Of a stretch of DNA of 64,000 bases, positions 2,594-30,110 are shown one piece after another. The notes below the pieces were generated by a model. It made no database searches. It was not told the origin of the DNA and was given only the letters and a program-made list of their open reading frames with translations. The stretch covers positions 1 through 64,000 of the IMG/VR virus record IMGVR_UViG_3300030685_000003; one strand, written 5' to 3'. This DNA is from a virus. Positions within the stretch are counted from its first letter, which is position 1. Each line of letters starts with the position of its first letter. A program made the position numbers and the translations under genes.

Positions 2594-3313
2594 CTATCAT
2601 GTAAATATTTGACTTCTTATACTATTGACTACATATTTTTCTATATCATTGTATGTAGCACATTTATCTACATTATCCCATAGACCTTCTATTTTCTCTC
2701 ATTTAAATTTATGATATTTTAATAAACTTTCTGTAAAACTTATTTTAGCTTCTTTATCTGGATTATTAAGCTCATGTACTATATCAAATCTTCTCATAAC
2801 CGCAGGATCTAATTTGGTCCCCATATTAGTAGCACCAATAAGTATTACATCACTTGACAAATTATCCAATCATATAATAAACTGATTGGTTACTCTATCA
2901 TTCTCAGTTGTTGCCGATTGATCATTAGATCAATTTCTCTTAAGGCAGAACGTATCGAGCTCATCGAAGAAAATGACGCATCTACCAGAGATTCACTTAA
3001 AGATTGCCTCTATGTTGTTTGAACTTAATCACATCTTTGCTGTAATGATAGATCAAGTACGAACAATATAGGTGGGTATTCATAGTTTAAATCATATGTG
3101 TTTAGCTATTGTAGTCTTCCCATTTCATGGAGCTCATATAAATAGCAGTTTATTGCGTATTCATATATTATGTTTTTTTAACTTAGCTTGGTGTGCAATA
3201 TCTAGATTGAGTTGGTCAATAAGCTCATTAGACTTTTCATCCAAAAATATATGGTTATCTTTTCATGAACTTTCATAAAGTAACTCTTGTAATTGCTGAG
3301 ATAAGAAGAACAT
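2594..3313 (-). CDS. AAA+ ATPase
   Basis: 239 residues. Walker A GAPGNGKTT (about residue 60), Walker B VIFFDELD (about 113-120), sensor-1 GATN, and arginine finger MRRFD follow in the canonical AAA+ order. Two of the three Walker A glycines are written TGA, so the motif exists only under the Gly code. The fold resembles FtsH/spastin-type or small phage AAA proteins. It probably remodels a protein or nucleoprotein partner; the partner is unknown. The DUF2828 and Ter genes lie further upstream in the same leftward block. Confidence 0.85.
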
Positions 3314-4002: not shown

Positions 4003-4878
4003 TTAAAATGTTTTTCATGATTGATTGACGTCAAATACGAACAACCCGTTATCTCTCCACATTTGTACTACTTGCGGGCGATCATCGAAGACAAACACTA
4101 CGTTGTACTTATCTTTGATATGTTTATCGTAGATCTCTTGCTTGACGATGCTATCTTTTCTCGTATCATCAGTCGCTCTCATATAGAGTTGATCGAATAC
4201 TATATCATTATCTTCAAGCCATCTCATTGTTTCTTCTCTACAATAATCCATACGCCCAGTAGTTATGATGATCTCTATCTTACATCCGTTTCTGAACGCA
4301 GCACTATAGAATGCGGCTAGAACTCATGATGTCTCATCTATACAGATATCTACTCAGCATTTAGCGAAATCATAGATGTCTCTATCTCACTTCTCGGATA
4401 ATGTTCAGTCGATATCGCATATAATACAGAGTGGGAGATCTGGACTATGTGGTCTTCTAATAAACGGTTTGTATAGATATTTATTGTACATCTCCATAAT
4501 TACCTTCTTACCTACGGGATTCTCTCTCTTGGAGTCTCTTTCGATACATTCATCTACCGGAGTGTCGAAGAATTTTACTTCGAACTCAGCACTATGAGTC
4601 TTTGCTATATCTCTTAGTACTAATTCATGCTCAGGAGAAAAGTTTGTATCGTCAACTATTGCTGTATATCAATCATAAAGAGTCATATGTACCATATGAT
4701 TTCTAGCCTCTATAACAAATTTCTCATTTGCTTTCGATCGACGTCAAACATCAACCATAGCTCTTAAGTCATCCTTGTTTATACGTTTATACTTACCAGG
4801 ACTTTTCAATACCAATTCCTTGGCATAAGTGCTCTTACCACTCGCTGGCAATCCTTTGAGCATGAGTATTTTCTTCAT
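4003..4878 (-). CDS. pnkP: polynucleotide 5'-kinase / 3'-phosphatase (T4 Pnkp type)
   Basis: 291 residues, close to T4 Pnk (301). The N-terminal kinase domain has P-loop GLPASGKST (residues 9-17), a DD pair and the TNFSPEH region. The C-terminal HAD phosphatase domain has DIDGT (about residue 170), a TTGR motif and FVFDDRP near the end. It phosphorylates 5'-OH ends and removes 3' or 2',3'-cyclic phosphates so cut RNA can be sealed. The RNA ligase gene lies directly upstream with a 1 bp gap, so the two form a healing-and-sealing pair, as T4 Pnk and Rnl1 do for cleaved tRNA. The catalytic DxDGT glycine is TGA. Confidence 0.93.
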
Positions 4879-4879
4879 C

Positions 4880-6130
4880 TTATGATTGGGTTGATTCTAA
4901 ATCCTCAACTCCTAGGTCAAGGTCTGCCGATTCTTTACCTAAAAAGATAGGACTCTTAGCTTTAGTTACAAATGGTTGGATTCAATCTCTACGAACAACA
5001 ACTCATTCATCACATGGTGACTTATCACATAATGGTACAGCGTGTTTGTGTGTAGGAAAATAAGTTATATCAATCCAATCCTCAGCAACAAAGTCTTTAT
5101 GATATCATTCCCACATCAATGGAACAATATTAAATCAATTCATAGTACAGAATGCCTCCATATTATCATATGTAAGATCACAAGAGATCCCATCCTCATT
5201 GACAATAGCTATTCTATACACATACATAGCCATTTGGCCCTGTGGTAAGTTATAGGTATAGTCTTTTTGGATTTGTTTGTCTCCATCCCATCAGATTATT
5301 TCTCCATAGATGATCCAGTTCTTTGGGATTCTATCTTTATATTCAGCTAGTACCTTGTTCCATAGATCAGAGGCATAGTACCCAGAGTGTTCCTTGTCTA
5401 CCTTAGCATCTTTAACTACCCTTCTAGATCCAGCTATGTAGTCATATTCGTATTCATCTATAGCGATCCCGAATTTTTTGAGAATATTCTCTATGAAGTT
5501 TGTAGCTCTTCTAACTTTGATATGCCCAAATCTACCAGATGTCCCATGTAATTTTTGGGTAGCGGTGACCATATCACCATCTTTATAGAAATGTTTATTT
5601 CTCCAGTAGTTCTCAGTGTCGAGATGTTCTGGGAAAGTTTTGGCATCAACTCTAGTGAATACCTTGTTTTTACCACCAACTCTATTCTCTCTAGATCATT
5701 TTACCGCAATTTCATATTTCTTACAGATCTCAACCCCATCAATGGCGTTAAAAGTGTCTCATAATTGCAGTTCTCATTGGACTAGGGATGATAAAGAGCT
5801 CACTGGCATAAGTAATGCTGAGGAAATATGCCCTCTCAATTTTACGGTCTTGATTCTTCTTTTCTCTTCGATATATCCTGGCTTCGCTTCTATGTCAGAA
5901 TTGAGCTCTGGTTTTCTGTAGAGGTTGTTATTCTTACAGTAGTCCTCAGATAGTTGACATTCAGCAGTGAATAGGATATATAGTGCTTGTAGATCTATAT
6001 CTTTAGACACTATAGCTTGGTATCCGAAGAACGGAACGGCTCTAAGATTATCGCATCATACGAGATCAAGTAGTGCTCAGATTTTTACTACGGTTGCACA
6101 GTAATTATTATCGTGGATTTCTAATTTCAT
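4880..6130 (-). CDS. ATP-dependent RNA ligase (DRB0094/Rnl5-like)
   Basis: 416 residues. Nucleotidyltransferase motif I is KLHGT (about residue 206), motif IV is DEGVVVR (about 373) and motif V includes TKAKS. An N-terminal domain of about 180 residues with RGHISSALLMPVS precedes the ligase core, as in the Deinococcus-type RNA ligase with an N-terminal OB fold. It seals 3'-OH/5'-phosphate nicks or breaks in RNA. It is cotranscribed with Pnkp and sits next to the tRNA cluster, so tRNA repair or processing of the unusual tRNA-like RNAs here is a plausible job (inference). Confidence 0.88.
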
Positions 6131-6928: not shown

Positions 6929-6993
6929 AGTCACAGGCGAGGATCGAACTCGCGTACGCGGATTTGAAGTCCACACCACTGACCAACTGTGAT
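6929..6993 (-). tRNA. UGA-decoding tRNA (anticodon UCA), probably tRNA-Gly
   Basis: Anticodon stem GTGGA/TCCGC (5 bp) with loop CTTCAAA gives anticodon TCA, which reads UGA. T-arm GCGAG-TTCGATC-CTCGC is perfect, and discriminator U fits bacterial glycine tRNA. Between acceptor and anticodon stem only about 12 nt remain, with no evident D-stem, and position 1-72 is an A-C mismatch, leaving 6 acceptor pairs. Given GroEL evidence that UGA is Gly, this most likely inserts glycine. A tRNA-Sec is excluded by the short arms. Confidence 0.8.
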
Positions 6994-7006
6994 ACTGCGA
7001 CATACT

Positions 7007-7254: not shown

Positions 7255-8646
7255 CTAATCTATTTGTTCGTATCTTTCAGAGTTGAGCGTCTTCAACATT
7301 ACTCCAATAGGAGTCATATCTTCACCACCCAATAATCCCTTCATGATAGCTGGAGATGCTCCAGAGACTAGTGCAACACCATTTGCATTATATGCTACAG
7401 GTGAGTTACCTTGCCTTCCATTTACATTCCAGTAAACAAGATTCGGCATTTGGTAACCAAATTGTTCGTATTGCAATCTGATAGCCTCATGATTTGTTAG
7501 TCATCCTACATTAGAGTCGTTGAACTCCATGTCAGAGATAACCAATATATTGTCTGGCATATCAGCAGCTGTTAGATTAGAAGCTAGCGCTGTATTCAAT
7601 ACTAATTGAAACGCTGCTTGTAGATTTGTGTCAAATCACACAGGCCCAGCAATCTCTCTAAATCTTTGGCAAGGAGATCCTTGCAAGTATTGCATTCTAG
7701 GTTCTGATGTGAACGTGATGAATGCATCCTTAAATATAGACTTGTTTCTTTCCGCTAGATATACTCACAATGATATGGAAATGTCCATCGGAGTCAAGTT
7801 ATTGTTACCATATGAGCTATTCATTGATCCAGATACATCTACCATAGGTAAGAAGGATTTTCCTTCAGGCACATAGTTAGGTAGGTTAGCCCACTGAGCA
7901 TTGATAATAGTTGGATTTTCTCATTTATTATATGATTGATACAACTGATAAGGAAACAATGTCCCAGCCTTGATTGCTAGCGGATCCTTTTCGATGAATT
8001 GATTGAATCTTTCCTCGTCGTGTCTAACAAATGCTTTCTTATATTTATGGAATGCTTGAGATGGAATCTTTTCGTATTCAATAAACGCCCATTGATTAGC
8101 AGACATTTGTTGCTCAACTACCTTAGTGTTTGCTACTAGGAATTTTCTGAATGCTTTTGGAGATAATTTGAGATGCTTTCTAAAGTACTCAAATATTTCG
8201 CCTTTTCTAGGCATCCATTTACATAACAATCCTATCTTACTTTCTTTTGTATGGTCAGTATCTGGTGAATGCATCCATTCAAGGATATATTCTAATGATG
8301 TATCAAAAAGATCATCCCATCTACCATATTCTGGCACAAATTTGTTGTATTTTTGAAGCTGTGCTTTTGATAAAGAATTCCAGATAGTTCTAAAGAATCT
8401 TCTTTCTCCAGCTCATCATCTGACATCTCTAGCCCAGAATAAACATCTGAACGCTAGCTTCTCATCTTCAACAAGTGCAGAGGTCCACATAGAAAGGATA
8501 TCCTTTTCAGACATATTTCTAGAAGCTCCCGCTATGAAGAAAAGATCTACAACAGAGTGTAGAGAAGTTGAATTTGTTACTGCTCCATTGGCAGTTAATG
8601 AATCATGCTGTCTAGCAGCGTTAACGAATGGTGATTGTGAGATCAT
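7255..8646 (-). CDS. DUF2828 protein: Ro60/TROVE-like region plus vWA domain
   Basis: 463 residues. The N-terminal helical part has VVDLFFIAGASR and RDVRGGAGERRFF, then CKWMPRKG and FVANTKVVEQQM-type motifs typical of DUF2828. The C-terminal vWA domain has a MIDAS-like VDVSGSM (about residue 289) with downstream Thr/Asp (GFDTN, ISDMEFN). DUF2828 is related to Ro60, a ring protein that binds misfolded RNAs and Y RNAs. Start MISQSPFVN is chosen because an upstream ATG lies inside RNA unit Y-a. Directly upstream are five Y-RNA-like units. Family call strong; RNA binding is inferred from homology and context. Confidence 0.85.
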
Positions 8647-8664
8647 GGTGTATATAGTTTTACA

Positions 8665-8737
8665 GAACACAGTTTGCTGGATTTGGACCAGCTCGCTCCG
8701 AGGAGCTTCAACCAGTTTAGTTATGCTGTATGTGTTC
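8665..8737 (-). ncRNA. Y-RNA-like unit a
   Basis: Closing stem GAACACA/TGTGTTC, then the shared motif ACAGCATAACT, a hairpin GCTC-CTCG-GAGC, and a T-arm-like hairpin GCTGG-TCCAAAT-CCAGC. Ends with TGT like the other units. It is the unit nearest the DUF2828 start codon. Confidence 0.65.
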
Positions 8738-8758
8738 TTTAAATAAAGATCAAATAAC

Positions 8759-8878
8759 GGGACGCATTTCTTAAGTGCTCTAACCAGACTGAGCTACCAA
8801 CGCCTTGCGACGCTAGGTTGGATTTGAACCAACGACCACTGCTTTAATAGAGCGTAGAAGTTATGCTGTGAGCGTCCC
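8759..8878 (-). ncRNA. Y-RNA-like unit b with tRNA-like module (permuted)
   Basis: Closing stem GGGACGC/GCGTCCC and motif CACAGCATAACT. Inside, in order: T-arm GTTGG-TTCAAAT-CCAAC, the acceptor 3' strand, a GCAA tetraloop, the acceptor 5' strand (8 bp stem CTAGCGTC/GGCGTTGG), and D-arm GCTC-AGTCTGGTTA-GAGC. tRNA parts are thus circularly permuted and the acceptor is capped, as in tRNA mimics of bacterial Y RNAs. If the closing part were removed, an anticodon stem CTGCT/AGCAG would form. Confidence 0.75.
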
Positions 8879-8893
8879 TTATATTTATTAACA

Positions 8894-9005
8894 GGACAGG
8901 ATTTTAAGGCGTCCTAACCACTAGACTACGTGTGCCTTGCGACACATAACGGGAATCGAACCCATGTCTCCTGCTTGAAGTGCAGAGTTTATGCTGTTAC
9001 TGTCC
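8894..9005 (-). ncRNA. Y-RNA-like unit c with tRNA-like module (permuted)
   Basis: Closing stem AGGACAG/CTGTCCT (outer pair just outside the interval) and motif ACAGCATAAACT. T-arm ATGGG-TTCGATT-CCCGT, GCAA-capped acceptor-like stem (TGTGTC/GGCACA) and Glu-type D-arm GTCTAGTGGTTAGGAC follow in permuted order. Removing the closing part would give stem CCTGC/GCAGG with loop ACTTCAA. Same architecture as unit b with different sequence. Confidence 0.75.
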
Positions 9006-9028
9006 TTTGATTTGTTTTACCCTAAACA

Positions 9029-9130
9029 GGTCACGATAAGATGGCTTGCGCCAAGATTATTGTGTAGCGAATCACCACTACGGGATCCTTGCGGACTGGA
9101 GATTTTTGGGTTGGGTTGCTGTGTGTGACC
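9029..9130 (-). ncRNA. Y-RNA-like unit d
   Basis: Closing stem AGGTCAC/GTGACCT, motif ACACAGCAACCC, two hairpins capped by GCAA tetraloops (GTCC/GGAT and TGGC/GCCA), and a GTAG/CTAC arm with a D-loop-like sequence. No clear T-arm, so it is a diverged or different module in the same frame. Confidence 0.6.
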
Positions 9131-9143
9131 TTTGAGATATACA

Positions 9144-9194
9144 GGAGGCATTGGTTTTAGCGTTACAGAGCTTATAAGTTTGCTGTGAGCCTCC
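9144..9194 (-). ncRNA. Y-RNA-like unit e, minimal form
   Basis: Closing stem AGGAGGC/GCCTCCT and motif TCACAGCAAACTT with only about 25 nt inside, including AGC/GCT pairing. It lacks the tRNA-like module, so it may show the minimal protein-binding part of the family. It is the first unit of the array on the leftward transcript, just after the endolysin stop. Confidence 0.6.
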
Positions 9195-9206
9195 TTTGTT
9201 GATGAT

Positions 9207-10121
9207 CTAATCTAAATAGTAGAATGTATTTACTGCTGGGTACCAAGATTCTTTTACTCATGGGGTACCAGTAACATATTTACCACTGATTTGTTTAGGT
9301 GTCATCATTCACTGACTGAAGTATACACATTTAAATAGATATCATTGTGATTTGAATGCCTCTTCAACAGAACTAAATGCATAGAGATGAGTTCAAGGAT
9401 AATAATTTGCTGGTTCTCTACTACAATCGCTATTTATTTTCCATTTCATTCATCCCCAATTATTGGCGAGATACCCACTAGCAGAAACAAAGTTTGCTCA
9501 TAGATGGCTCTCTTTATATGACGATCATAACTGTAATTTGAATAGATCATATCAAGACCAAGTCTCTTGTGATTGTTTTTTTATCTTAAGAAACAATTGA
9601 TCATTATGACATAGTGGAGATGTTCTTCAATTTATCCAAACTTCACAAACTTTATTCATAAGTCTCAAGTCTAATCAGGTTAATATGGTCGTATAAACTG
9701 GCTTAGCACCTTTGATGTTTTGTAATCTAGACATATCAAAGTTAACTCATGGGCAATTCTTCGGTTGGAAGTCTCAATGCCTCTTAATTTCCATTCAAGG
9801 ATGTTCCTCATTGATTCGAGATATGATTGTTCTAATCATATTATATTGAGCCTCTGTTGGTAATACTCATGGTAGATTGAAATTTCAAACAACCTCAATC
9901 TGTATTGAGTCAAGATTAGCTTGTGCATTTCTAGTTCCTCATACAGCTATGTCCAAATCATTTACTTTCACAAAGTCTCAAGAACATCATACTATAAAGT
10001 GTGCTGGTATGTGCTTCATTTTTCAACTAGCAACCCGAGTTCAACTCATTGACTTCTCCATCTGCTTGGCAGATAAACAGTTTGGGGTACCAGTATTATG
10101 AATAATAATATACTTATATCA
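9207..10121 (-). CDS. N-acetylmuramoyl-L-alanine amidase (endolysin), start uncertain
   Basis: Amidase_2-type core: YIIIHNTGTP at the N-terminus, HIPAHFIV, then AVGGTRNAQANLDSIQIEVVG (split glycines TGA), PTEAQYN and the zinc-type KRHGDFQPKNCPG. The C-terminal 130 residues look like a cell-wall-binding domain rich in Trp/Tyr. Cuts the peptidoglycan stem peptide during lysis. The conserved N-terminal strand lies upstream of the first in-frame ATG (10059-10061), so the true start may be a non-ATG codon near 10121; I could not identify it. Confidence 0.8.
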
Positions 10122-17058: not shown

Positions 17059-18363
17059 TTATTCGTAATCTTTCATATCAAGATATGTGAAGTTATTTGT
17101 GTATGTTTGATACGCTCTCTTTCTGGCGTACCATTGATTCTCCGTCATTGAAGAATTATCTACTATGTCGTATATATTTATCTCTTGTTTCCCTTCAAAA
17201 GATCTCATTGCTCTTCCCGATGCTTGTATAACATTAGCTGGCTCTCTACCTGAGAAACAGACTATAATTGTATCTACTGCTGGATTATCGAATCCTACTC
17301 AGAGGATTTGTCTTGTTGCTACCAATACTCTTTTTTCTTCAAATTGCAACATAATTTCATTTCTTTTTTTTGTGGTAGTTGTGGCAACTATGAATGGGAT
17401 ATCAAGTTCTTTTCAAAATCTCTCGGAAGTCTCAGCTCTGTCAGTCATGATAAGTATTTTTTTGTTTGCTGATAAAGACTTCTTTACTAGTCTTTTCACC
17501 ACATCTATTTTTTCTGGGTTTGCTTCTAACATTGTCTTAAGATTATTCCAATCAGCATACTCATCGAATAGTGTCTTGAGTTTTATCTTAGTAACCCTTA
17601 TGTCAAATTGAGAGATAAGAAACTCTCTATATTCATAAGCATCTACTATTCTTCCCCAAAATTTTAGGAAGTCACCATACTTAAATCAAGACATATCAGG
17701 AGTTCAAGTCATAGCATACTTATATTGACATTGGGTCTCTATGATCATATTTCTGTATGTGTTTTTGATGAGTAGATGTGCTTCATCGAATATAGTTATA
17801 TCCCATTCCCCATTATATTTTTCTAAGAATTTTTTGTAGGAAGCATAAACAACAACCGTTATGTCATTGAATTGTTTCTTCATTCCATAGTAGATACCTA
17901 CTTGTCATGGGAATTTTTCTTCTAATGATGCTGATAGTTGTTGTGCATTCATAATTGTATTTGTCAATATAACTGTCTTTCATTTAAGCTGCCCTATTAT
18001 CCAAGCAGTTGTCACCGTCTTACCGTATCCAACATCGGCGTATAAAAGACCGTATGGTTTCTGGATAAGTTCTTTCTGTGGTCTATCCTGATATCGTCTA
18101 AGTACTGTAGTATCGTGTATTGTAATAGGCTTATTTATTACTGACTCTACCTTTATTCCGAAGTGTTCACAAGCAGAGATATTACACTTCCCATTCCTAA
18201 CATTCCATAGTGGATAGAAATCTGGTTGCATATATCAGGCCTTCTCATTGATCCTAGTTAGCTTTTCTTTCTTGTAATTTTCTGTACGCAAAAAAGATTT
18301 AGGATTAGCGAAGGTATTTAGTTGTGTTATCTCTGCAAGAGTTATTGATCAGTTATGGAGCAT
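17059..18363 (-). CDS. SF2 DEAH-type helicase
   Basis: 434 residues. Motif I ADVGYGKT (about 113), motif II IFDEAH, motif III MTGTP, motif V-like GVGFDNPAVD and motif VI QASGRAMR. The N-terminal 80 residues include a short Cys-containing part (GKCNISACEHFG). Resembles UvsW/RecG-like phage helicases that remodel replication or recombination intermediates. Context (RecT, SSB, nuclease) supports this. Confidence 0.88.
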
Positions 18364-25254: not shown

Positions 25255-25680
25255 TTAGTCTGTTATAGATAAAGACTTCGCCTCTTCTGCTAGTTCTTCT
25301 AATCTTTCAATCATTTCGTCATATCAATTTTCGTAAGTCACAAATTGATCTTCTAGAGTTATTGCATATTTTCTTCACTTCTCTGTGCCATATCTAGGGG
25401 TTCGTCTGTCTGTCCTGATTTCTATATCCGTTCTATCTTCACTACAAGCGACTACTTCTGCGTATATTCATTTACCTTTGTAGAGATTTGTTATTAAAAA
25501 TCCTATCTCTAAATCATTGGCGTTTTCTAGTCGCTCATCTTTTTGTTCGGTTGTGAGCTTTGCAAGTGTCCCGTCTTCGTCTATAGCTTCTTGGCGTCAA
25601 TAACCTTGACAAGAACATTTATATTCATTCTCCTCTAATACTTTTTTACTATCTGTGCTTTCGTGGTAGTATTTTGCCAT
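25255..25680 (-). CDS. hypothetical protein, 141 aa
   Basis: MAKYYHESTDSKKVLEENE, with CSCQGYG near residue 25 and beta-rich NANDLEIGFLITN. Acidic C-terminal helix. Unrecognised. Confidence 0.6.
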
Positions 25681-25681
25681 T

Positions 25682-26041
25682 CTATTCTTGTCAATCAAAT
25701 AAAACATCGTCCGGCGTTCTGTCATCGTCCAGTGTTGCTGGCTTTTGTTCTGATGCATCCATTAGTTCTATGCTTTCTTCTACCACTCGGTATCTATTCT
25801 CTTCGTGATTATCCGGGTCATCCCCCGTATGGAAAGAAGTATTTTCTATATCAAAAATAATCTCTCGAGAATATACAATATCTTTATAATTATGAAAACT
25901 CGCGATAACCCCTGGTATTTTTTCTGGAAGATTATTCCAATATTCTTTTGTTATTACTCGTACTTTTTGTCATTTCTTATATTTTTCCTCCTTCGTTTCC
26001 TGTTCTCTCGCGTCGGCTTCTGTTAGTTCTTGTATAGCCAT
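25682..26041 (-). CDS. hypothetical acidic protein, 119 aa
   Basis: MAIQELTEADAREQETKEE, then GQKVRVITKEYWNNLPE (KOW/SH3-like strand) and an acidic Asp-rich tail. Unrecognised. Confidence 0.55.
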
Positions 26042-26055
26042 CTTGGATTGTAATA

Positions 26056-26080
26056 AGAAAAGTAAAGACCGGCGCACCGG
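26056..26080 (-). terminator. terminator after nuclease gene
   Basis: Leftward CCGG-TGCG-CCGG followed by TCTTTACTTTTCTT. Lies about 14 bp past the nuclease stop. Confidence 0.65.
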
Positions 26081-26093
26081 GTTGATAAAGGAC

Positions 26094-26483
26094 CTACTTG
26101 TACTCTTTTGCGTATCAATCGGCAATCATTGCTTCGTTGACGCTTTCGTTTTCTAATAAGATCTCTCCCAATAGTCTGCCATAGTAGTCCTTATGGTTTT
26201 CAAGTTTTATATTTATCCTACCCGGACGGCTTAGGATTTGTCTTAGGTGGTCCTTTGCTTCTTGTCCACCGCTTTCGGCGTATCAATATCTTAATGTGTT
26301 GCTCTCGGGCGCGTCAATCCCTGTTAGTCTTAGGGATTGCTTTTTTCCTTGGTATTCTACTTTGACTGTGTCCCCGTCGATAACGTACAAGAGTTTGGGG
26401 GCGTCTGTATGTAGAATAACAAAAGACGCTCCCCCAAAAAATAACAAAAGCACAATAACTAATAGACTTTTTTCAGCGTTCAT
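26094..26483 (-). CDS. thermonuclease (SNase fold), membrane-anchored or secreted
   Basis: 129 residues. N-terminal hydrophobic segment (SLLVIVLLLFFGGASFVIL), then the SNase core: YVIDGDTVKVEY, LRLTGIDAPE, EAKDHLRQIL, KDYYGRLLGEILLE. Catalytic Arg/Glu/Arg positions are present (RLTGIDAPE, GRLLGE). Extracytoplasmic nuclease, possibly degrading host or competing nucleic acid. Confidence 0.88.
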
Positions 26484-26490
26484 ACGTCGG

Positions 26491-26832
26491 CTATTTTACA
26501 AAATAAACTGTATAGTTTCCGTTTGTTTCAAAACATTTTACACCGTTTTTGTCTGCCGTTTTGATTTCGTCGTATAGAAATCTTAGCCCATTATCTGTCA
26601 AGAATTGGTTGAAATATATTCTTGTTGTGTTGCTGTAATCCCAGTCCTTGTAAATATAAATGATTTGTTTTACTTGGTCGATGTCGCAAATTTGCGAGCG
26701 GTAAGACTGAAACGTGATGACGTGTTTTTTTAGGTTTCACTTTTTGTCTGTTTCTTTTTGTTCGATTTCAATTTGATTGGCTACTGGCGCACCTGTTCTA
26801 GTGCTTCAAAGGTTTGTTGCTGTTATAGACAT
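26491..26832 (-). CDS. hypothetical protein, 113 aa
   Basis: MSITATNLGSTRTGAPVAN; Lys-rich middle and Tyr-rich C-terminus (NGNYTVYFVK). Unrecognised; same direction as neighbours. Confidence 0.55.
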
Positions 26833-26875
26833 TGTAGGGTTTTGGAAAAGGTTAAAAAGATTTTGATAAAGAAAA

Positions 26876-27199
26876 CTATTTGTACAGAATTCAAATTGCT
26901 GACGCTTCGTCGCGTTGTTCTCGCTTTAGGTCTAGGTTTTCTATAATTGATTTGATATTCTCTGGATATTCACCATAAATATATTGACATCAATTTTTAT
27001 AATCGTCTTTGCCTTGTATTGTAGTAAAGACAAAACGCCCGTTTTTATTTGGGTCTTCAAATTCTCATCGGGCACATCATCTACAGCAAGAGAAGGCTTA
27101 TTTTGCAAAGGTGCGTTGCCTGTTTAGTATCTTGAAAACTCTGTTGATTTTCTTTTTGAAATCGTTTCTTTCTTCTGGTGTTAGTTTATATTTTGTCAT
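26876..27199 (-). pseudogene. small protein gene interrupted by in-frame TAA
   Basis: MTKYKLTPEERNDFKKKIN leads to an in-frame TAA at 27098-27100, after which the same frame continues for 74 codons (AFSCCRCCARGEFEDPNKN...ILYK) with a Cys cluster and no new ATG. Either a truncated gene, a stop-codon readthrough or a sequencing error. The CxxC-type pair after the stop suggests a zinc-binding fold. Confidence 0.5.
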
Positions 27200-27247
27200 C
27201 GTAGATTATAGATAGGGGATAAAAAAATTAGAAATATATTTGATTGA

Positions 27248-27613
27248 TTACTTGAATTTCTGACGGGTGTCAATTAGCATTGCCTTAAATTCTGCTTCTA
27301 TTCTTTTAAATTCCTGGAATTTCTTTACTATATCCTCTGGTGTTGTCTTGTTATTTCTCATAACCTGATAGAATGCGACTAATTTTACTTTCTTGTGTCC
27401 TGCTGCACTAGATAAAAAACTCGAGATCATACTATCAAACAGCCTTTTTATTCTATCATCTATAGAATAGAGCACTTTTAAATCCTTGTCCGCCTGTTCT
27501 TCTGTTATCTTTGCATATTTGCTTAGCAAATCATTATCGACTAGGCAGTAGAATTCTACACTTCGTGTCCCATAGTGGGCTAGGTCGCTCAAGTTAATTA
27601 TTTTGATTTTCAT
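27248..27613 (-). CDS. hypothetical protein, 121 aa
   Basis: MKIKIINLSDLAHYGTRSV; helical, basic C-terminus. Open under any code (no TGA). Unrecognised. Confidence 0.6.
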   Translation of the reverse strand: MKIKIINLSDLAHYGTRSVEFYCLVDNDLLSKYAKITEEQADKDLKVLYSIDDRIKRLFDSMISSFLSSAAGHKKVKLVAFYQVMRNNKTTPEDIVKKFQEFKRIEAEFKAMLIDTRQKFK

Positions 27614-27899
27614 CGGATTGGCGAAAAGAAATAAAGCTTTCTATCAATATCGGATAAGTAGAAAAGGTGTTGATTGGTCCAAAGTTTGACTGTCATTTGT
27701 TGGCGTCTGTGTTCTCCTTTGGGTAGAAAAAATCCATACAATACATATTTTTTATTACGTCAATAGTATCTTTGCAAGGTTCTCAATTATATCCGCAGAC
27801 AATCTCTATTTTTGTAGTGGGTTTTAGTCCGTGTTTGTCTAGAGTTTTGCTGTCGTGAAATAATGAAAAATTCTGTGCTTGGATTTTTCCTATAATCAT
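27594..27899 (-). CDS. hypothetical protein, 101 aa
   Basis: MIIGKIQAQNFSLFHDSKT with cysteines VCGYNGEPC; overlaps the downstream gene by 20 bp. Unrecognised. Confidence 0.55.
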
Positions 27900-27925
27900 T
27901 GGGAATTGGTAGTTGATAAATGTTT

Positions 27926-28102
27926 TTATTCTGTTGTCCCTGTGTTTGTATTCTCTTCTTGGATTTCCTCCAATATATTTTCTAGTTCTCTATTAGTTTT
28001 TTGGTAAAGTTCCGCCTTTAATACGTCAATATCGTATTGCGTCAAGGTGATTTGTTTTTGTGTTTCTCTGATTATTTCTTGGATGATGTAGATTTTAGGC
28101 AT
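27926..28102 (-). CDS. hypothetical protein, 58 aa
   Basis: MPKIYIIQEIIRETQKQIT; a long amphipathic helix likely to form a coiled coil, Glu/Thr-rich end. Unrecognised. Confidence 0.55.
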   Translation of the reverse strand: MPKIYIIQEIIRETQKQITLTQYDIDVLKAELYQKTNRELENILEEIQEENTNTGTTE

Positions 28103-28119
28103 TGGTTCGGGTTGCTAGA

Positions 28120-28146
28120 TAGTAAAAACGCCCGGAGTTCGGGCGT
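28120..28146 (-). terminator. Rho-independent terminator
   Basis: Leftward ACGCCCG-AACTC-CGGGCGT followed by TTTT. Ends the transcript of the small gene at 28171-28284. Confidence 0.75.
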
Positions 28147-28170
28147 GTTGGTTTGATAAAGAACTTCTTT

Positions 28171-28284
28171 TTAGATTGCGTTGAATTGTGCAAGCGTCCC
28201 AATAATTAGCACGGCAACCACTAGCGCCCGCAGTCGGGTATGTTTTATTGTGTCTGTGATTTCTTTTTTAGTTTCTTTTGTCAT
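28171..28284 (-). CDS. small membrane protein, 37 aa
   Basis: MTKETKKEITDTIKHTRLR then a hydrophobic helix (ALVVAVLIIGTLAQF). Single-pass peptide; function unknown. Confidence 0.45.
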   Translation of the reverse strand: MTKETKKEITDTIKHTRLRALVVAVLIIGTLAQFNAI

Positions 28285-28288
28285 CCGT

Positions 28289-28762
28289 CTAGTAGTTCTC
28301 GAATAAAACGTTGATCGCTTCAAGTTCGGCGTGTGTGTATACTCTGCGCAATTTCTCGGCGTTGATTTTTAATTGGTTAAAAATATTCTGGCTTTCTCTC
28401 GCGTTTTCATATCAAAACTCCTCGATAAAATCGAAATAGTCGCCAGTATCTTGCGCCGTTCTGTAGTCCATAACTAAACAAGCGAGCGCGGCAGATTTTA
28501 CCTTGTCGACTCTCTGTTCTGCTGTTTGGTTGCGTCGTTCTCTCAATTCTTTTTGACTGAGCTTTGTTTGTCTGTTTCTATCAAATATGAATGTCCTTGC
28601 TCCCTGTTCTACTTCGTAGTCGTGTTGACTTCCGAAAAAATCAAAAGTTTCTTTTCAAATCTTAATTTGATATTGGAAACGCTTTGCGCCTCGCTTCTCT
28701 GTTTCGTGCTTGGCTGTGATTTCAATTTTGTCTGTGTGGCTTTTTACGGTGTCGTTTTGCAT
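28289..28762 (-). CDS. hypothetical protein, 157 aa
   Basis: MQNDTVKSHTDKIEITAKH; charged, helical C-terminal half (ESQNIFNQLKINAEKLRRV). Two TGA glycines. Unrecognised. Confidence 0.6.
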
Positions 28763-28781
28763 CGTGATTTTGGCTATAAAG

Positions 28782-28896
28782 TAAAAATAAAAAGCGTCAG
28801 CCTCTCCCCGTTTTTGATAAAGAAAAACAAGCTAGCCCGCTTCACTGGGATTTGTTTAACCTCATCAAAAAAACAAGCTGACGCTTTTTATTTTTA
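28782..28896. repeat. 20 bp perfect inverted repeat, palindromic 115 bp element
   Basis: 28782-28801 and 28877-28896 are perfect reverse complements (TAAAAATAAAAAGCGTCAGC and its partner), and the inner 75 bp is also imperfectly palindromic. T-runs on both outer sides make it a possible bidirectional terminator; a miniature mobile element is an alternative. Confidence 0.6.
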
Positions 28897-29184
28897 CTGT
28901 ATATGTGATGATATTATTGTAGATATTATTATATAGAATATAATAAATCTCGGACATCGTAGGGGCTGGCGCTTGACTTTAGGGTCTACCGTCGAGGCGG
29001 GGGCGTCTATCTTTTCTCTTGCTCTGTCCTGTGTGTAAAAGAACGCTTGACGGGTTCGGGTTGCCCGTGCTTTGTTTGTTGTTGCTTTGCTTGGTTGTGT
29101 AGTGATTGTTTCTGGTGTTGGGTTTTCTTATGCGGTTTATACTCCGCAAACTAAATCATTGTTTAGTCCCAATCTGTTGAAACA
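28897..29184. other. non-coding or unassigned region
   Basis: Several short frames exist leftward (for example MSEIYYILYNNIYNN, and basic frames without ATG) but none has a convincing start and composition. A hydrophobic rightward frame at 29072-29272 is probably the shadow of A-rich leftward sequence. Confidence 0.4.
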
Positions 29185-29212
29185 ATTATATATAGAATGT
29201 GTTTTTTTGCAA
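29185..29212 (-). promoter_or_regulatory. promoter TTGCAA-16-TATAAT
   Basis: Leftward -35 TTGCAA, 16 bp spacer, consensus -10 TATAAT, inside the 3' end of the HNH gene. Probably drives the small genes below 28.8 kb. Confidence 0.65.
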
Positions 29213-29746
29213 GTCTTTGCGTGTATTTTGTGCAATACTTTGGTTATCAATGGGACTTGTACCTCTTTCTAGATTATGCTTTATTTTGTGGATAGCTGTA
29301 GAACTGACGCCGTAGGCTTTCCCTATCTCTCTTATAGTCATTCATATTGATAGGTCTTCTCTTATTTTTTCTAGTGTTTGGCTGTCAATCTTTTTTGCTT
29401 TCCTGTTTTTATTCGTTGCGTCTGTTTGGTTGTCTTGTGGTGTTCCTATAAATAGATTATCTTTGTTGTTGTTGTTTGGGTTGTCGTCTTTGTGGCAGAT
29501 GATAAAGAGTTTATTTTTAATATCATATCCAAGAAACGCTTGAGCCACTAACCTATGGGCTAGATATTTTCTTTCCCTGCTGTCATCCTTGAGAGAATAA
29601 ACAATATAATGTTTCCCGTCTTTGTTGGTCTTGCCTTTCCCTCCCTTAAGATTTTTATATTGTCAATTCTTAAATAATCTTTTACAGTTTCCCAAGTTGC
29701 TGATTTGATATAGTGGGTATGCTTCAATTGTTTTTCGTTCTTCCAT
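29186..29746 (-). CDS. HNH homing-type endonuclease with C-terminal HTH
   Basis: 186 residues. NUMOD4-like start (IEAYPLYQISNLGNCKRLF), HNH core LAHRLVAQAFLG and ICHKDDNPNNNNKDNLF, then a C-terminal helix-turn-helix (MTIREIGKAYGVSSTAIHKI). A free-standing homing endonuclease next to the switch region. First leftward gene. Confidence 0.85.
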
Positions 29747-29819
29747 AGTGTGGATATTTCAAATATAAATAGATGTTTAGTGTTTTATTGATTGCCTTGT
29801 TGTTTACTTGTATATTTAA

Positions 29820-29847
29820 AGTATAATCAATTTTTATTAAAAAGCAA
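29820..29847 (-). promoter_or_regulatory. promoter TTGCTT-16-TATACT
   Basis: Leftward -35 TTGCTT, 16 bp spacer, -10 TATACT, about 75 bp upstream of the HNH ATG. Likely the first leftward promoter. Confidence 0.55.
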
Positions 29848-29962
29848 ATCTTTTTTCGCGAAATTAAGACTATTATCATATAGCAAGTAAGCAGGTAAGA
29901 AGCGGGCTTGCTCTTGATATATTAAAGACAGCTTGACATTGTGCGTTTTGATAAAGAAACCG

Positions 29963-30110
29963 TACTACATAGTAGTATAGTATATGAATTATATATAGTA
30001 TATATTTTATTTTTTATTTTATTATATACGATGTATATTTTGTGATGTAAATAAATATAGATCAAATATATATACTATATGTATCTCATATACTATACTA
30101 CTATGTAGTA
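29963..30110. repeat. 25 bp perfect inverted repeat around AT-rich core (origin-like)
   Basis: 29963-29987 and 30086-30110 are exact reverse complements (TACTACATAGTAGTATAGTA plus TATGA). The 98 bp between is almost pure A/T with further inverted similarity. Position between divergent gene blocks fits a replication origin or strong cruciform. Confidence 0.7.

Follow-up and report, generated by a model that had tools for sequence, protein, structure and literature searches.

A 64,000-nucleotide stretch of viral DNA (positions 1 to 64,000 of the 70,155-base IMG/VR record IMGVR_UViG_3300030685_000003; hereafter the window) contains five tandem units, designated a to e, on the minus strand. They lie between a gene that ends at 9207 and one that starts at about 8646, the latter coding for a DUF2828/DUF7788 protein of Ro60-like vWA type. 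We consider it quite probable that these units belong to one RNA family linked to DUF2828, in which two members, b and c, carry an intact tRNA-mimic cargo. All five units start with AAAG, AAGG or a similar sequence, have their ends joined by a stem of 7–8 bp, and show the motif ACAGCA exactly nine bases past the first stem base. The motif reads ACAGCAA in units d and e and ACAGCAU in units a, b and c, and the 3' end is CUGU in four of the five units and CCGU in b. The constant domain can be written as AAG - stem - ACAGCAA ... stem - CUGU, with varied cargo between the stem strands. In 3000 dinucleotide shuffles of region 8600–9250, one unit appeared 4 times and two units never, compared with five units within 600 bp in the real sequence.

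The same unit type was found in many other genomes and was specific for the strand of the DUF2828 gene. A sequence search identified 666 phage records with a relative of the DUF2828 protein. In a geometry scan of 80 fresh IMG/VR contigs, 61 units were located on the DUF2828 strand and none on the opposite strand (0.5 expected in shuffles), and in 38 GTDB contigs the corresponding numbers were 43 and 1. The GTDB contigs with units included ones filed as Lokiarchaeota and Methanobrevibacter, plus a Breznakiella chromosome. On the DUF2828 strand, 129 of the 310 ACAGCAA heptamers had a closing stem; on the opposite strand, none of 86 did. CM R1, a covariance model whose training set excluded the window, gave 14 matches in the 80 viral contigs, every one of them on the strand of the DUF2828 gene, and had no match at E<0.1 in T4, phiKZ, SPO1 and K. 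Units of this type flank the DUF2828 gene in Felix O1-like, Rhizobium, Sinorhizobium, Listeria, Staphylococcus, Enterococcus, Mycobacterium, Campylobacter, Aeromonas and Pseudoalteromonas phages. Many phages possess several short units (~50–70 nt) together with one or two long ones bearing a permuted tRNA module of the kind described below for b and c; in the module scan, many of these phages had modules with fully paired acceptors (7/7) and short apical loops. Most units of the family carry no tRNA module. The majority share the strand of the DUF2828 gene and lie no more than a few hundred bases from it, which would also fit elements acting in cis within a single long transcript, as processing signals or as the leader of the DUF2828 mRNA, rather than separate RNAs. 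However, units are found on either side of the gene, upstream as well as downstream, some lie among tRNA genes many kilobases from it, and their stems join both ends, with fixed AAG/CUGU-type termini, as in the expressed Class I RNAs of dictyostelids (PMC7919456). This makes the cis-element explanation very unlikely.

Units b (120 nt, 8759–8878) and c (114 nt, 8893–9006) were each detected by sequence inspection and by the geometry scan. An earlier interpretation made from the letters of the window (the sequence-only reading) had assigned them to 8759–9005; it placed both correctly except for the end, as unit c begins at 9006, one base beyond. Read from 8878 to 8759, unit b is GGGACGC-TC-ACAGCA-TAACTTCTAC-GCT-CTATTAA-AGCAG-TGGTC-(GTTGG TTCAAAT CCAAC)-CTAGCGTC-GCAA-GGCGTTGG-TA-(GCTC..GAGC)-A-CT-TAAGAAAT-GCGTCCC. 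Unit c, read from 9006 to 8893, is AGGACAG-TA-ACAGCA-TAAACTC-TGC-ACTTCAA-GCAGG-AGAC-(ATGGG TTCGATT CCCGT)-TATGTGTC-GCAA-GGCACACG-TA-(GTC..GAC)-G-CC-TTAAAATC-CTGTCCT. The closing stems are GGGACGC/GCGUCCC in b and AGGACAG/CUGUCCU in c, each followed by ACAGCAU and a permuted tRNA-like module. The module opens with an anticodon-like hairpin and a variable loop, continues with the T-arm and the acceptor 3' strand and, after GCAA, finishes with the acceptor 5' strand and the D-arm. The features noted in the sequence-only reading, namely the closing stem, ACAGCA and a T-arm - acceptor - GCAA - D-arm order, can all be read directly in both units. In unit b, the minus-strand module comprises the T-arm GUUGG-UUCAAAU-CCAAC (8817–8833) and the D-arm GCUC-AGUCUGGUUA-GAGC (8777–8794), both from sequence and the module scan, an acceptor-like stem CUAGCGUC/GGCGUUGG (8797–8816) that is closed by GCAA (8805–8808) and folds in the intact RNA, and the local part of an anticodon arm, GCU-CUAUUAA-AGCAG (8839–8853), with a long-range partner CU at 8774–8775. 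The equivalent parts of unit c are the T-arm AUGGG-UUCGAUU-CCCGU (8949–8965; sequence and module scan), the acceptor-like stem UAUGUGUC/GGCACACG (8929–8948; sequence and folding) closed by GCAA (8937–8940), the D-arm GUC-UAGUGGUUAG-GAC (8911–8926; from sequence), which is of Glu type, and the local anticodon arm UGC-ACUUCAA-GCAGG (8970–8984), with UUC in its loop and a partner CC at 8908–8909. When un-permuted, the halves of b and c were called tRNAs by ARAGORN. A tRNA-with-intron interpretation of 8809–8935 (RF00005, 24.5 bits) was rejected; it combines the D-half of c with the T-half of b and is a by-product of two adjacent permuted units.

The two halves of each module could also complete an anticodon stem, CU|GCU with AGCAG in b and CC|UGC with GCAGG in c, where the bar indicates the place at which the closing stem intervenes. 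This complementarity, reported in the sequence-only reading, is present in the sequence, but the accompanying statement that a perfect 5-bp stem in two units is hard to obtain by chance was too strong. In both units, only the outer two of the five pairs are long-range, the inner three belonging to the local hairpin, and 5 bp was also reached by 47% of mismatched half-pairings with the same register freedom. Because of these two features, b and c alone are weak evidence for an anticodon stem, and one could argue on the same grounds that the complementarity is accidental and only the mimicry of the T-arm, acceptor and D-arm is real. We examined long-range pairing between the segment after the D-arm and the segment before the T-arm in 12–18 tRNA-type units from unrelated phages and prokaryote contigs. 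The mean number of long-range pairs was 3.27 in 15 hand-curated type-I tRNA-type units versus 2.16 in mismatched combinations (permutation p = 0.00035). Without one doubtful case p was 0.0013, and without b and c as well it was 0.005 (L025_3553, a permuted module among tandem tRNAs without a closing unit, was left out of the repeat test); with four GTDB units added, p was 0.001. Moreover, in several homologues the whole anticodon stem, 5–6 pairs, is built purely from the two flanks. Anticodon-stem complementarity, whose loss in homologues would have spoken against the sequence-only reading, is conserved in homologues (permutation p 0.0003–0.005), and chance pairing is an improbable explanation. 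The pairing excess among homologues and the stems formed by flanks alone therefore indicate that the anticodon stem is a real part of the fold and is able to form in the intact RNA, without excision.

The sequence-only reading had proposed that the outer part of b and c might be excised and the ends joined. Carried further, this would make b and c true permuted tRNA genes: after removal of the closing stem and ACAGCA, the halves would be circularised through the anticodon arm, and RNase P/tRNase Z would take out GCAA to give a working tRNA, with junctions joining ...GAGCACU to GCUCUAUUAA in b and ...GGACGCC to UGCACUUCAA in c. Several observations are compatible with it. As in the permuted tRNA genes of red and green algae and Thermofilum, the 3' half comes first, a short linker separates the acceptor strands, and the halves, with complementary anticodon-stem parts, complete a cloverleaf; the ARAGORN calls, the canonical anticodon loops kept in several homologues (e.g., CUGUUAA and UUCAUAA) and the nearby genes for a polynucleotide kinase-phosphatase (Pnkp) and an RNA ligase point in the same direction. 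On the other hand, the part to be excised, closing stem plus ACAGCA, is the most conserved part of the family and is shared by units without tRNA cargo, whereas in permuted tRNA genes no conserved ribonucleoprotein (RNP)-type stem flanks the halves. The putative anticodon loops, with C33 in c and A34 in b, look non-functional, and the junction position differs among units, with no common splice signal. We know of no splicing endonuclease that acts on units of the b/c type. Algal and archaeal permuted tRNA genes rely on a bulge-helix-bulge (BHB) motif and the tRNA-splicing endonuclease (PMC3978253), whereas no Rfam intron family matched in the region, where no search aimed at a BHB motif was made. 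In addition, no excision is needed, since the intact RNA can itself form the anticodon stem, and Pnkp and RNA ligase, which the sequence-only reading had correctly placed nearby, fit tRNA repair as well as splicing. Taken together, processing into a working tRNA appears highly improbable. Of the two alternatives that had been offered, tRNA ancestry or actual processing, the former stands in the sense of ancestry or mimicry, based on the YrlA score of b, the ARAGORN calls and pairing in homologues, whereas the latter does not agree with the outer part being the conserved core. The puzzling tRNA-like arrangement can be explained without invoking splicing.

The arrangement of b and c resembles that of YrlA, a bacterial Y RNA (RF02553), whose tRNA-mimic cargo likewise runs T-arm, acceptor, loop, D-arm and is enclosed by a helix at the anticodon-stem position, and whose gene also lies beside that of a vWA-containing Ro-type protein. 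Y RNAs with tRNA-like domains near Ro60 have been described in bacteria and mycobacteriophages (Chen 2014, as cited in PMC12282133), so tRNA mimicry itself is already a known kind of feature, and b and c might simply be phage YrlA-type RNAs that have a Ro60 protein as binder and fall into a class already described. The YrlA model gave 30.9 bits for unit b (E 4.9e-4) and 47.8 bits for the best other phage unit, compared with a gathering threshold of 69; in b, as in other long units, it was the inner part that matched. Genuine YrlA genes, one set of which adjoins a protein with the Ro60 vWA domain, have the constant stem GGCGAAUGC...CUUGUCGCC, which is absent from b and c; the phage units instead have AAG-stem-ACAGCAA...CUGU. 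They also differ in that several are present per locus with varied, often non-tRNA cargo, the majority lacking a tRNA module, and in that the partner would be DUF2828/DUF7788 rather than a TROVE protein. TROVE was not found in the 15 prokaryote genomes carrying DUF2828 that we searched, and no TROVE domain (PF05731) scored over the cut-off in the DUF2828 protein or elsewhere in the viral record. Assignment of b and c to the YrlA class is thus unlikely.

The constant part of the units closely matches the Class I RNAs of dictyostelids (RF01414), and this similarity is compatible with homology and convergence alike. Class I RNAs are expressed and have an AAG start, a short end-joining stem, a conserved 11-nt motif beside the stem, a CUGU end and a variable interior (PMC7919456). 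In both groups the stem keeps its pairing while its sequence is free, and the motif (CCUUACAGCAA in the Rfam consensus) is located on the 5' side of the stem; Class I RNAs also resemble the short units in size (~50–65 nt) and in being present in many copies. They have been reported from dictyostelids only, with the RRM protein Rnp1A as binder (PMC7919456), and thus differ from the units in their eukaryotic origin and type of binder; no tRNA cargo has been reported for them, and their stem-to-motif distance differs by about one base. The RF01414 model, which is blind to phages, gave 23.3 bits for unit e and 37.1 bits for the best phage unit, all scores being below the gathering threshold of 41.5, and most of its good matches in these phage genomes fell on units. 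By manual count, 16–17 of 22 matches at E<=0.01 were within 5 kb of DUF2828, a zone that makes up ~6% of the sequence. Matches at 17424–17482 of the window, inside a helicase open reading frame, and at T4 132052–132103 were regarded as chance; because chance matches of similar E occur, E values of ~0.002 are insufficient by themselves and it is the location that carries the argument.

The protein encoded next to the units (7255–8646, minus strand, translated with table 4, TGA=W) matched Pfam DUF7788 (4.7e-41) and DUF2828 (2.1e-19) and PHROG 850, "RNA-binding protein" (8.7e-124). Its frame is open from 8670, but the first ATG with a conserved N-terminus, at 8646, is the likely start. The sequence DVSGSM, a putative vWA MIDAS motif, is conserved, mycobacteriophage relatives are annotated as "Ro-like RNA binding protein", and a profile of 19 relatives had TROVE and Ro60 chains as its best, though weak, PDB matches (E 0.03–0.17). 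Downstream of this gene, within ~3.3 kb and also on the minus strand in table 4, are genes for the Pnkp-type polynucleotide kinase-phosphatase (4003–4878; Pfam HAD_PNKP 8e-36 and AAA_33 1.2e-18; PHROG 505) and RNA ligase (4880–6130; Pfam RNA_ligase 1.9e-8; PHROG 968 1.8e-79). RNA ligases, RtcB or CCA-adding enzymes are also encoded near the DUF2828 gene in Listeria A511, Aeromonas LAh_9, Pectobacterium CBB and Citrobacter Ci1.

We propose that units a–e would be transcribed as separate small structured RNAs and serve as partners of the Ro60-like protein encoded downstream. The constant domain, i.e., the end-joining stem with ACAGCAA on its 5' side and the CUGU-type 3' end, would be the protein-binding handle, and the part between the stem strands an exchangeable cargo. 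In b and c the cargo would be a complete circularly permuted tRNA fold, formed in the intact RNA without excision or ligation, whose anticodon stem is completed by the two flanks so that the handle leaves from the anticodon arm. The resulting RNP may display a tRNA or anticodon-arm surface as a decoy for host anticodon nucleases, or may act as a tether that brings tRNA-acting enzymes, such as the neighboring Pnkp and RNA ligase, to tRNA-like substrates. The nearby tRNA repair genes could fit either possibility, and a decoy or tether role is advanced here tentatively, as somewhat less than an even prospect. A role in tRNA mimicry has been discussed for YrlA, and its tRNA-like domain has been suggested to inhibit an anticodon nuclease by competition (PMC7790460). 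In phage tRNA repair, Pnkp and RNA ligase counteract anticodon nucleases, and the same enzyme genes occur near DUF2828; the classical system has no RNA component, whereas the present locus also encodes tRNA-like RNAs and a Ro-like protein, and anticodon-stem-loop cargo beside repair genes would suggest a use in counter-defence. If correct, this model supplies the DUF2828 domain with a concrete candidate motif for RNA binding, and the dictyostelid Class I RNAs with possible relatives and a possible protein partner. It also points to a candidate compact RNP system, consisting of a Ro-like protein and several handle-and-cargo RNAs, that is present in many phages and mostly unannotated. It is possible, but again short of even chances, that DUF2828/DUF7788 proteins and ACAGCAA-stem RNAs constitute one widespread RNP system in phages, bacteria and archaea, parallel to Ro60-Y RNA and including Class I RNAs, with tRNA or anticodon-stem-loop mimics as cargo that phages, with adjacent tRNA repair enzymes, could use as decoys or sensors against anticodon nucleases.

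Several observations weigh against this interpretation. CM R1, either at default settings or with filters off, missed units b, c and d, which were found by the geometry scan; a penalty on long inserts is probably responsible. The covariation count on the training set was strong but partly circular, and it is not independent because units were partly picked by stem pairing. At the threshold used, at least one unit was present at 43 of the 80 viral loci, and about half showed none. In Listeria phage CKA15, the highly transcribed noncoding RNA regions (26388–26698) are not the units, which are located at 25290–25552. Furthermore, the likeness of DUF2828 to Ro60 appears weak by sequence, and what suggests the decoy role is resemblance.

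The remaining units of the window have different cargoes. Unit a (75 nt, 8664–8738, minus strand; geometry scan, CM R1 E 3.9e-4) reads AAAG - 8-bp stem - ACAGCAU - T-arm-like hairpin GCUGG UCCAAAU CCAGC - stem - CUGU and is possibly a normal-order tRNA mimic. Unit d (104 nt, 9028–9131, minus strand; geometry scan) has the closing stem AGGUCAC/GUGACCU, ACAGCAA and three inner hairpins, among which no tRNA module was recognised. Unit e (53 nt, 9143–9195, minus strand) reads AAAG - 7-bp stem - UCACAGCAA ... CUGU and was the top match of CM R1 in the window (E 2.6e-5), unit a ranking second. At the gathering threshold, Rfam matched none of the units and found only nine ordinary tRNAs in the window. 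A further geometry match at 2894–3052 (score 30) lies inside an AAA ATPase frame and has no AAG start, and was taken as chance.

Short units of the family were also examined with regard to cargo. An anticodon-type hairpin (at least 5 bp, loop YUNNNA[AC]) was found in 12 of 106 short units versus 1.1 in shuffles, and 7-nt loops were in excess (28 versus 12 in shuffles), other loop sizes being near expectation. Example loops read like anticodon loops of Lys UUU, Ser GCU, Asn GUU, Asp GUC and Gly UCC. Many short units (loci L013, L034, L035, L008, L029 and L027) share another hairpin, not of the anticodon type, with an AUUGGA/UUUGG-type loop, e.g., CUUUC AAUUGGU GAAAAAG. In L118 (4229–4342), L124 (4769–4849), L129 (6969–7056) and L134 (4499–4607), the cargo resembles a normal-order tRNA with the closing stem replacing the acceptor stem, and in the L118 unit a UUCG tetraloop is seemingly in place of the anticodon loop. 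A few units in bacterial contigs appear to be normal-order tRNA mimics. Around the DUF2828 gene of Aeromonas phage LAh_9 (L013, record 25985–30021) there are at least eight tandem or nearby short units, in which the first motif base varies (ACAGCAA, UCAGCAA, GCAGCAA and CCAGCAA).

Other candidates were considered and rejected. The highly transcribed CKA15_059–061 were examined as expression evidence, but they represent a region other than the units; the most transcribed noncoding regions of this phage (L023 3389–3699) are ~0.8–1.2 kb upstream of its ACAGCAA units and are of a different sequence type. T4 rnaC and rnaD (L152 909–1172) are stable RNAs in a tRNA cluster, rnaC having a T-arm-like hairpin; with no ACAGCAA stem unit and no R1 match, they were not accepted as family members. 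At L025 ~4390–4450 (LR756501), a permuted tRNA-like module lies between ordinary tRNA genes; it has an anticodon stem of 5 bp and no ACAGCAA closing unit. GenBank features near DUF2828 labeled "tRNA-OTHER", pseudo-tRNA or a 122-nt tRNA-Val (L005 6044–6156, L018 7994–8107 and L014 10196–10317) may be mis-calls from permuted modules. Finally, the long frames of the viral record are open when TGA is read as tryptophan, and one of the nine ordinary tRNAs, at 6929–7001 beside a tRNA-Trp (CCA), has the anticodon TCA, which fits this code.
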